Source: an uncultured Eisenbergiella sp. (GTDB lineage: Bacteria; Bacillota; Clostridia; Lachnospirales; Lachnospiraceae). Taken from it: DNA of 44,357 bases. The position numbers were made by a program, and so were the translations under genes. How positions within the stretch are numbered: position 1 is the first letter of the stretch; each line of letters starts with the position of its first letter. Of the stretch, positions 1 through 44,259 are shown piece by piece. The DNA is taken from contig CANRGX010000018.1 in the NCBI GenBank assembly GCA_947630215.1, forward strand, positions 1 to 44,357, read 5' to 3'. The notes under the pieces are model-generated. The model was not told the origin of the DNA, made no database searches, and saw nothing but the letters and a program-made list of their open reading frames with translations.

Positions 1-1248
<1,248 letters not shown>

Positions 1249-1256
<8 letters not shown>

Positions 1257-2355
1257 CCGTCTCTACCTCCGCCAAAGCAGCCTTTTCCTGCTGCTGCAAC
1301 TGAAAAATCGCTTTCTGTCTGCTGATCTCCCGTCGCAGTTCTTCCTCGTCAGGCAGATACAACTTATATTTAGAGGCAAATAACTGCTCATTTCCATGAA
1401 GAATGGAATATCTGGCAATATCCTCGTCCGTTTCTTCGCAAAGTACAAGTCCGATTGTCGGATTATCATCGTCCCCTTTTTTCAATTCATCATACATACG
1501 GACATACATATCCATCTGTCCTACATCCTGATGTGTGATCTTATTTGTCTTTAAATCAATCAGCACAAAGCATTTCAAAATATAATTATAAAATACCAAA
1601 TCAATATAATAATCTTCCTTCTCCGTATGGATATGCTGCTGTCTTGCCACAAAAGCATAGCCTTTCCCCAGCTCCATTAAAAATTTCTGAAGATTGTTAA
1701 GAATAGCCGTTTCCAAGTCGCTTTCTGTCATATCTGTATTTGAAGACAATCCCATAAATTCGGCAATGATCGGATTTTTTACAAATTCCAGCTTATCATT
1801 TTGATAGTTAAAAGTCTTTTCTTTCATCTCTGTTTCCACGGCATTTTTATTTTGGGACTGCAACAAACGGTAATAATATTGGGTATTGATATTTCTTTGC
1901 AGAGTGCGGGAACTCCAAGTCTGCTCGTAAGCCTCCTTCCGATACCACTCTCTCGCTTTACTGTCATCCACATGAATAAGCAGACGATAATGTGACCATG
2001 ACAATAACTCAGATTTTCCACACACCGTGTGGAAAATCTCCGGATAAGTCTTGTAAAACAGATAAAAACTATAAAGATTCGTTTTGGCAAAACCTTTTCC
2101 GAACTGTTGACCAAGCTCTTTTGACAGTTTCTTTATCACTTCTACGCCATAATCCGCCCTGTCTTTTCCCGCCAATTCTTCTTCAGCAATTCGCCTGCCA
2201 ATCAACCAGTTCCTTTGTACCAGAACTGCATCGACTGCCTTATATGCGGTCTGTTGTGCGGAAAGGATAATCTCCCCGACATCATTTGTAATATCGTTTG
2301 TATTCTTATAATTTTCCATAAGAATATTGTTCGTTGCAACAGGTAAATTATTCAT
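1249..2355 (-). CDS. DUF1016/YhcG-type PD-(D/E)XK nuclease inside the type I RM operon
   Basis: This 368-residue protein has the two-part DUF1016 layout. The N-terminal helical domain carries the signature [10 protein letters not shown] (about 118-127). The C-terminal PD-(D/E)XK nuclease fold has Asp252 in YYIDLVFYN and the motif IDLK with Asp267 and Lys269, followed by [10 protein letters not shown]. The catalytic residues are all present, so it is probably an active nuclease. The start codon overlaps the hsdM stop as ATGA, and the 3' end overlaps hsdS by 8 nt, so the three genes are translationally coupled. DUF1016 proteins are common in defence islands and near RM genes, but their precise role is not settled. 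A paralogue lies at 42046-43083 in the type III locus. A perfect palindrome is embedded in the coding sequence at 2011-2039. Confidence 0.92.
2011..2039. repeat. Perfect 13-nt-arm palindrome inside the DUF1016 gene
   Basis: Left arm AGATTTTCCACAC (2011-2023), spacer ACC, right arm GTGTGGAAAATCT (2027-2039); every arm position pairs. On the coding strand it spans the codons for IFHTVCGKS. Its central base, 2025, is the first base of the Val111 codon after Thr110, just before the conserved LSWSHY. The paralogue at 42046-43083 has a different palindrome centred on the equivalent codon. Confidence 0.97.
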
Positions 2356-42045: not shown

Positions 42046-43083
42046 TTATTCCTTCTCCAACTTCTCAAATTCATCTAAATTCAATTCCCGCTTCAATTCT
42101 TCCTCGGTCGGCATATAGGGCATATACTTTGCCGCATAAATCTGTGTGTTGTTCTCCGGCAGAGTCAGCTGCATCAAAGTATTGCTTTTTTGAGCGCACA
42201 GAAGAATGCCTACCGGAGGATTATCGCCCTCGTTCATCATATATCTTGTATAATAATTAACATACATCTGCATCTGACCGATATCTTGATGTGCCAGGTC
42301 GCTTGTTTTCAGATCAATCAGCACAAAGCATTTCAGAATATAATTGTAAAAGACAAGATCGATATAAAAATGTCTGCCGTCTATATTGAAATGCTTCTGC
42401 CTGGCGACAAAAGAAAAACCCCGTCCCAGTTCCAGCAGAAATTTCTGCAAATGATCAATGAGTGCCTGTTCCAGAGTGGACTCATAATAATGTTCATTTT
42501 CTGGCAGATCAAGAAATTCCAGCACATAAGGGTCTTTGATAATCTTTTCATATTCCGGTTTTGGCTCCGTAGTCTGAATTTCGGTAGCAACACTCTCTTT
42601 ATCCCTGCTTGCAAGGATACGCTGATAGAACATGGTATTAATCTGACGTTGCAGCTGTCTGACGCTCCAGCTCGATTTTACCGTTTCGTCAAAGTAGAAT
42701 TTGCGTTCTGTTTCATTTTCTACTTGCATCAAAAGCAAATAATGGGACCAGCTCAATTCGGCAGACAGTGTCTGCCGAATTGGAAACGCAAGATAAAAAC
42801 GCCGCATATTCCGCAGATTCCGAATACTGAAGCCTTTTCCAAACTCCTTTGTCAAACGTTCTGAGATATATTTCAAAACCTGTTTCCCGTAGGCTGCGCG
42901 TTCATTTTCTCCGCAAATCTCATAGATTATTTTGCCGATATTCCAATATGCAGTTACCATCGCAGCATTGACAGCAGAATACACCTGCCGCTGTGCATCA
43001 ATGATATAGCCTCGAATGGAAAGATACATATCCTCTGATTGCGTATCACTTGGCAAATTATCTTTTTTTATAATTTCACTCAT
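42046..43083 (-). CDS. DUF1016/YhcG-type PD-(D/E)XK nuclease in the type III RM locus
   Basis: The 345-residue protein is a paralogue of the one at 1249-2355. The N-terminal DUF1016 domain includes FGKGFSIRNLRNMRRFYLAF and LSWSHYLLLMQV (about 110-121). The C-terminal nuclease domain has Asp242 in [20 protein letters not shown] and Asp257/Lys259 in IDLK, then HQDIGQMQMYVNYY. All catalytic residues are intact. It overlaps the DUF4391-like fragment upstream by 8 nt and directly precedes the 156-residue gene. It remains whole although mod, res and the DUF4391 gene are damaged, so it may have a role independent of methylation. A perfect palindrome lies at 42754-42782. Confidence 0.92.
   Translation of the reverse strand: MSEIIKKDNLPSDTQSEDMYLSIRGYIIDAQRQVYSAVNAAMVTAYWNIGKIIYEICGENERAAYGKQVLKYISERLTKEFGKGFSIRNLRNMRRFYLAFPIRQTLSAELSWSHYLLLMQVENETERKFYFDETVKSSWSVRQLQRQINTMFYQRILASRDKESVATEIQTTEPKPEYEKIIKDPYVLEFLDLPENEHYYESTLEQALIDHLQKFLLELGRGFSFVARQKHFNIDGRHFYIDLVFYNYILKCFVLIDLKTSDLAHQDIGQMQMYVNYYTRYMMNEGDNPPVGILLCAQKSNTLMQLTLPENNTQIYAAKYMPYMPTEEELKRELNLDEFEKLEKE
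42754..42782. repeat. Perfect 14-nt-arm palindrome inside the second DUF1016 gene
   Basis: Left arm CAATTCGGCAGACA (42754-42767), central G (42768), right arm TGTCTGCCGAATTG (42769-42782); all 14 pairs match. On the coding strand it spans the codons for PIRQTLSAEL. The central base is the first base of the Leu106 codon after Thr105, just before LSWSHY. This is the same place, to the base, as the palindrome at 2011-2039, though the arm sequences are unrelated. Confidence 0.97.
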
Positions 43084-43429
43084 GAAAACATCCTTTCAAT
43101 TCGCTCCACGCTGTGGAGTGTTTTTGCCACTCTTTAAATCTTCCATTTTTTTCACGTAAACGTGTATAAATTTCAAATTTCTTCTTGGGCTGCTGTTCCC
43201 TCCGGGCGGCAGCCTCGGCCTTTTCTATCATTTTTTTCAGTTTCAGTATTTGCTCTTGTAAAGAAAGGCGTTCGTCCAAAGAAAAGGAGTTCATCTTTTC
43301 AGCTCGTTCCTCATAAAGAGTAATCTGCTCTACGAAAATATCCCATATCTCGTCAAGAGAGAAAGTGCCTTTTTCTTCCTGATTGATAAGGTCATCGTCG
43401 CCTGTGGAAGTCATAACCGAAATACGCAT
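43076..43429 (-). pseudogene. DUF4391-like protein, truncated at its N-terminus
   Basis: The 117-residue stretch has the C-terminal features of DUF4391 proteins, which accompany type III RM genes. It has FSLDEIWDIFVEQITLYEER, a charged coiled coil with SLDERLSLQEQILKLKKMIE, and AARREQQPKKKFEIYTRLRE. Intact members are about twice this length and have an N-terminal globular domain that is absent here. The first nine residues probably do not belong to the family. In another frame just upstream the peptide KVIKDDVEKTTQQGCVFRL ends in a stop and may be the tail of a lost neighbour. Its end overlaps the DUF1016 gene by 8 nt. Confidence 0.6.
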
Positions 43430-44223: not shown

Positions 44224-44259
44224 AAAAAACCCGTAAACAGTATTGTTTACGGGTTTTTT
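44224..44259 (-). terminator. Terminator of the tRNA-Asn gene
   Basis: Perfect 16-nt arms (AAAAAACCCGTAAACA at 44224-44239 and TGTTTACGGGTTTTTT at 44244-44259) surround a 4-nt loop. The stem is flanked by A and T runs, so it can work in both directions. It lies 24 nt past the 3' end of the tRNA. Confidence 0.92.

Follow-up and report, generated by a model that had tools for sequence, protein, structure and literature searches.

The window analyzed here, a 44,357-nt stretch spanning contig CANRGX010000018.1 (assembly GCA_947630215.1) of an uncultured Eisenbergiella sp., carries two genes of the DUF1016 family, both on the minus strand, and each holds a perfect DNA palindrome within its coding sequence. 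The first gene (1249–2355) lies between hsdS and hsdM and encodes P0001 (368 aa), while the second (42046–43083) encodes P0002 (345 aa) and adjoins a fragment with a partial DUF4391 match. DUF1016_N (PF17761) and YhcG_C (PF06250) both score above the Pfam cut-off in each protein. P0002 appears to join a predicted ParB/Noc-like DNA-binding domain to a PD-(D/E)XK nuclease: its residues 41–158 (42610–42963, minus strand) align with Noc/ParB DNA-binding domains, and its YhcG_C nuclease domain is encoded at 42082–42546 on the same strand.

Both palindromes described in a first-pass annotation of this DNA were found again, one at 2011–2039 with 13-nt arms and a 3-nt centre and one at 42754–42782 with 14-nt arms and a 1-nt centre, neither being assigned to a strand. 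As that annotation had it, each centre falls on position 1 of the codon that follows a Thr (T110/V111 in P0001; T105/L106 in P0002). Its placement of them just before an LSWSHY motif holds in that both centres lie upstream of the LSW codon, the distance being 21 nt in one gene and 12 nt in the other. When the entire window was scanned without gaps (loop up to 11), only two further palindromes scored at least 13, one at 44224–44259, close to a tRNA gene, and another, imperfect, at 772–808.

The same annotation had argued that neither chance nor plain descent accounts for the two palindromes and that palindromy itself is selected. We gathered relatives from an 80-locus scan, from the window's own genome, family and class, from two other phyla and another family, from fetched stretches, from viral contigs and from E. 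coli. DUF1016 matches were present in 299 open frames, which came from 275 of the 286 loci. The N-domain was covered far enough in 234 frames, 145 of them non-redundant, and five synonymous-codon shuffles per gene (725 copies) served as the control. An odd-centred quasi-palindrome scoring at least 8 is found in 117 of the 145 genes versus 64 of the 725 shuffles, leaving 28 genes with none, and a score of at least 11 is reached by 55 genes versus a single shuffled copy. This family-wide excess over codon shuffles rules out a chance origin and bears out the annotation's argument that palindromy itself is under selection; the outcome that the annotation had named as refuting it, a lack of excess over shuffled copies, did not occur.

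Codon position 1 holds the centre in 86 of the 90 genes with a score of at least 9, mostly at alignment columns 100–109. Such a palindrome is present in 22 of 30 Pseudomonadota loci (for example AATTGTCCAACAG-N-CTGTTGGACAATT) and absent from the other 8, and E. coli K-12 yhcG contains three in-frame units spaced 39 nt apart, tandem in-frame units occurring in 10 of 214 distinct genes. DUF1016_N itself turned up in 27 members of a 60-genome sample of the window's family; viral contigs gave 7 and 2 relatives, and none for YhcG. We also note that DUF1016_N matches number seven to nine in some Bacteroidota genomes (G336, G363, G409 and G315), and that many of these matches are fragments.

Four roles had been suggested for the palindromes: an RNA hairpin, a memory of a target sequence, a replaceable cassette and a self-recognition site for the nuclease. 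Perfect inverted repeats would indeed fold in the mRNA, where a hairpin could tune expression or be bound by the DUF1016 protein, and in three genes (L079, L083 and L157) a palindrome lies just ahead of the start codon. The pairing itself contradicts this reading. In 79 de-duplicated units, giving 395 pairs of a wobble base with a second-codon base, the base opposite a second-position G is C in 78 cases, A in 2 and T in 1, despite T being synonymous; opposite A it is T 98, A 2 and C 2; opposite C it is G 130, A 4, T 4 and C 2; and opposite T it is A 69 and G 3. The 395 pairs thus include 4 G-T and 6 A-C. Since T and C are always synonymous at the wobble position, an RNA stem would have admitted G-U, and the almost pure Watson-Crick pairing therefore points to selection on DNA rather than on an RNA hairpin.

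These units were picked by palindrome score, which favours pairs. A second set of 49 genes, in which the centre was fixed by a protein motif and not by palindrome quality, is free of that bias, and here arm position 6 forms 43 Watson-Crick pairs in 49 genes versus 14.2 expected, with all four pair types occurring. Mismatches lean toward A-C over G-T (12 versus 5 at k3–k8 in the fixed-centre set and 20 versus 8 at k2–k9 in the wobble-test units, k numbering the arm bases). This lean would suit a hairpin of the bottom strand, but the mismatches are few and reading by a protein explains it as well. Apart from the tRNA and an L10 leader, no Rfam family was found in the window. With G-U pairs not tolerated, we rejected the RNA hairpin and hold it to be extremely unlikely; it also offers no place for the covariation with helix residues described below.

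Comparison of arms and proteins reveals that the arm bases follow the protein that each gene encodes. Mutual information was computed between the bases of the arms and those protein columns that lie outside the peptide encoded by the palindrome. The top columns were 110 for k3, 113 for k4, 85 for k7 and 88 for both k8 and k9; column 89 was linked more weakly to k5 and k6, column 138 ranked second for k3, and for some k, above all k1 and k2, other columns had high z as well. In P0002, the codons of columns 85–89 (R88–N92, 42808–42822, minus strand) belong to a helix, 87–99 in the structure model, that covaries with outer bases k5–k9, and those of columns 110–113 (S113–L116, 42736–42747, minus strand) to a second helix, 112–119 in the model, that covaries with inner bases k3 and k4. 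The alignment places the corresponding putative reading helices of P0001 at T92–S96 (2068–2082, minus strand) for the outer bases and S121–R124 (1984–1995, minus strand) for the inner ones.

The associations follow familiar amino acid-base preferences, such as Arg with guanine. In 111 genes below 75% identity, taken from 200 site-bearing genes and numbered by alignment column, Arg at column 85 goes with G at k7 (45/45), Ala with C (10/10) and Gln with C (4/4), while Thr (T 13, C 7, A 2) and Ser (T 9, C 6, G 2) are less strict. At column 113, Arg accompanies C at k4 in 46 of 46 genes and Leu mostly A (A 16, G 2, T 1); at column 110, Ser pairs with A at k3 (45/49), Thr with G (29/37) and Gly with C (13/13). 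Lys or Arg at column 88 goes with G (46/60), Glu with C (8/9) and Trp or Tyr with T (16/17), and Arg at column 89 with C at k5 (14/17). Among 88 non-overlapping nearest pairs, the same columns were the best of 302 for k3, k4, k7 and k8 (Fisher 3e-11, 4e-5, 9e-13 and 2e-8), and the links of column 89 to k5 and k6 were not significant in these pairs (0.15 and 0.055).

We then ranked each gene's own site using base tables trained only on genes below 60% identity to the gene tested. The own-site percentile averaged 0.963 (median 0.991), with 102 of 111 genes in the top tenth, versus a mean of 0.608 and a maximum of 0.711 for 60 random column sets; P0002 (L001) reached 1.00 and P0001 (L003) 0.99. 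The first-pass annotation had called the arms of the two window genes unrelated. Their sequences do differ, but they are not neutral: arms differ between relatives because each matches its own protein. Of the four suggested roles, the self-recognition site is the one that the data support, and we regard the palindrome as very probably the cognate site of the encoded DUF1016 protein, lying between its specificity codons. The palindrome at 2011–2039 would accordingly be the site of P0001 and that at 42754–42782 the site of P0002.

The reading columns were chosen on the same genes as were ranked, so sites in non-coding DNA matter as an outside check. An upstream palindrome was present in 18 of 215 genes versus 18 of 746 control windows. 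From these 18 genes we selected, by eye, ten upstream sites in nine genes as DUF1016-type, setting aside L019, L061, L196, L069, L076, L062, L217, L181, L255 and the second palindrome of L074, and scored the ten against every second gene. For seven of the ten (the first site of L031, L096, L074, L079, L083, L157 and L054; L074, L079 and L083 being near relatives), no more than 5% of the other proteins gave a better fit than the gene's own. The fit was weaker for L056 (9% of other proteins better), the second site of L031 (12%) and L048 (26%).

Alleles of E. coli yhcG provide a similar check. In all eight Lys85/Arg88 alleles read, the first unit has C at k7; both of its arms carry G at k8, save that one arm of K-12 has A. 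In the three Arg85/Trp88 alleles, both arms show G at k7 and T at k8. Second and third units track the residues less strictly. The most variable part of yhcG among these alleles runs from nt 240 to 420, comprising the reading helix and the sites. Breakpoints are seen inside the third palindrome (nt 378–410), at nt 385 with IS1 and at nt 406 with another transposase; IS1 adjoins this palindrome in L134 and the other transposase in L133 and L135.

Arms that drift together with perfect Watson-Crick pairing, and a compensatory change between E. coli alleles, would also be expected if template switching repeatedly perfected an old quasi-palindrome that had no function. Such mutational upkeep, however, predicts neither the matching of residues to bases nor sites ahead of other genes of the family, and we consider it very improbable.

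The occurrence of sites in genomes bears on the suggestions of a cassette and of a target memory. Allowing up to 3 mismatches, each of the two window palindromes is single-copy in its own genome. A consensus search for subfamily-1 sites in 25 genomes (25 of the 80 scanned loci were used) gave 26 sites versus 3 control hits; 22 of the 26 lie in or upstream of DUF1016 genes, three are poorly symmetrical and one (L161) stands apart. Copies of the palindrome spread across many genes were thus not found in the window genome or, with the subfamily-1 consensus, in the 25 genomes. The L161 site (G126:C2:1705000-1707100) is a well-formed DUF1016-type palindrome with no DUF1016 frame in the 2.1 kb read; the frames beside it resemble, by eye, an integrase and a BrnT toxin.

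In-frame palindromes are known as mobile elements in coding sequence from Rickettsia, where passages of PMC4316617 describe them as spread over many genes, unlike those of DUF1016. A mobile palindromic element or replaceable cassette of this kind, sitting in a tolerant loop, would agree with the tandem in-frame units and with the isolated L161 unit. We rejected a dispersed element given the single-copy window palindromes and the consensus hits at DUF1016 loci, and with arms that follow the host protein we see next to no prospect for this origin. The cassette idea survives only weakly, in that reading residues and site form one short linked block. For a target memory we found no evidence, the window palindromes being single-copy in their own genome, with phage and plasmid collections not searched.

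Structural comparison suggests how such a site would be read. The model of DUF1016_N resembles ParB/Noc DNA-binding domains, an HTH_ParB profile matches one DUF1016 gene of the window's genome, and in the hhalign alignment column 110 of DUF1016 coincides with the G of ISTGHAR. We therefore propose that DUF1016_N is likely a ParB/Noc-like DNA-binding domain. Searching by sequence found no relative in the PDB, and a weak NCBIfam match to the LmbU-family regulators (E 0.0097; 15.9 bits versus a cut-off of 125) was not used. Like ParB–parS and Noc–NBS, the DUF1016 system would combine this DNA-binding fold with a palindromic site. A parS site presumably also lies inside spo0J of B. subtilis, and a parS with two mismatches occurs in 1 of 21 ParB frames from related genomes.

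According to passages of PMC7383237, ParB reads an outer base from its recognition helix (R173), and position 201 governs an inner base, the same layout of specificity that we find in DUF1016. Those passages also state that R173 and G201 are conserved, whereas the DUF1016 site lies within its own gene and differs by lineage. DUF1016 half-sites are, in addition, further apart, and the proteins carry a PD-(D/E)XK nuclease instead of the ParB N-terminal (CTPase) domain, which was not found in a Pfam scan of the window proteins that gave only DUF1016_N and YhcG_C. Predicted nucleases of the YhcG family, as described in Kosinski 2005 (PMC1189080), share the C-terminal nuclease domain and a helical N-domain of about 200 aa; in passages of that paper the N-domain had no confident fold match, and they mention no DNA site.

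Computation supports selection on DNA for palindromy, the covariation of residues with bases, and the fold; binding in the cell, binding as a dimer and the purpose of binding are what we infer. A DUF1016 dimer, each subunit contributing two helices, would read the two half-sites through columns 85, 88 and 89 at the outer bases and columns 110 and 113 at the inner ones. On this reading site and reading residues coevolve, which is why relatives have palindromy and geometry in common without sharing sequence. Bound within its own gene, the protein would block RNA polymerase and cap the level of the nuclease. An operator inside the coding sequence would move with a mobile gene and act behind any promoter, a brake suited to a gene that occurs in many contexts, and its position, flanked by the codons of both reading helices, would keep lock and key linked under recombination.

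DUF1016 sites are mostly internal to the gene, a few genes having one upstream within 55 nt of the ATG, and the analysis established no promoter. We count for autorepression the five upstream centres at 29–55 nt ahead of the ATG (L157, L074, L079, L083 and L054); that of L096 is 7 nt from the ATG, and those of L031, L048 and L056 are at 149–225 nt. Promoter-independent autorepression may be the main use of the palindrome, a proposal for which we see roughly even chances. The explanation as a whole, an own cognate double-stranded DNA site, a ParB/Noc-like reader and autorepression, we consider likely.

Alternatively, the same self-recognition could serve to address the nuclease, which would find and cut other DNA with the same gene type or park at its own locus until triggered. 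The nuclease fold is found, and of the 200 site-bearing genes 191 have coverage, 190 of which retain the catalytic D..[DE]xK, leaving room for such a role. The family is also a candidate defence family in PADLOC (PDC-S02), and paralogues of one genome have distinct half-sites. Of 28 within-genome pairs compared, one was the same locus twice, and none of the 27 real pairs had half-sites within one base of each other. However, the sites of paralogues are no more different than protein divergence predicts, so that orthogonality beyond divergence was not shown among the 28 pairs, and the nuclease would cut its own gene unless restrained. We regard this use as possible, though clearly less probable than autorepression. 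Somewhat more doubtful still is a self-addressed nuclease in which an allele's reading head and address occupy one short block, both controlling expression and excluding same-allele DNA while specificities diversify.

Autorepressors with intragenic operators, lac O2 being an example, likewise have a protein-binding site inside coding sequence, but the DUF1016 site lies in the binder's own gene, between its specificity codons, and covaries with them. We did not find such a self-palindrome in titles and abstracts of the literature on DUF1016/YhcG, PDC-S02 and intragenic operators, a search whose scope excluded most subscription journals and bioRxiv preprints. For DUF1016_N the analysis provides a probable fold, a probable cognate site and a table that relates residues to bases. 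Since the predicted site can be read from the gene itself for most genes, the role of YhcG-type candidate defence nucleases becomes directly testable. The genes also form a natural protein–DNA specificity data set, each pair within one gene, and offer a case in which coding sequence is selected to carry a DNA site, one covarying with the encoded protein.

Further observations concern the surroundings of the two genes. Just ahead of the second DUF1016 gene, in the tail of the DUF4391 fragment, 43097–43125 is a degenerate DUF1016-type palindrome (CAATTCGCTCCAC-gct-GTGGAG...). Its bases suit, by eye, an L007-like protein (Gln85, Arg88) and not P0002, and it is perhaps the remnant of a replaced DUF1016 gene. 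The imperfect palindrome at 772–808 lies inside hsdS and has 16-nt arms. At the start of the contig (window positions 1–60), the hsdS frame enters a tandem repeat of four bases (DRQT codons), which may be phase-variable or an assembly end.
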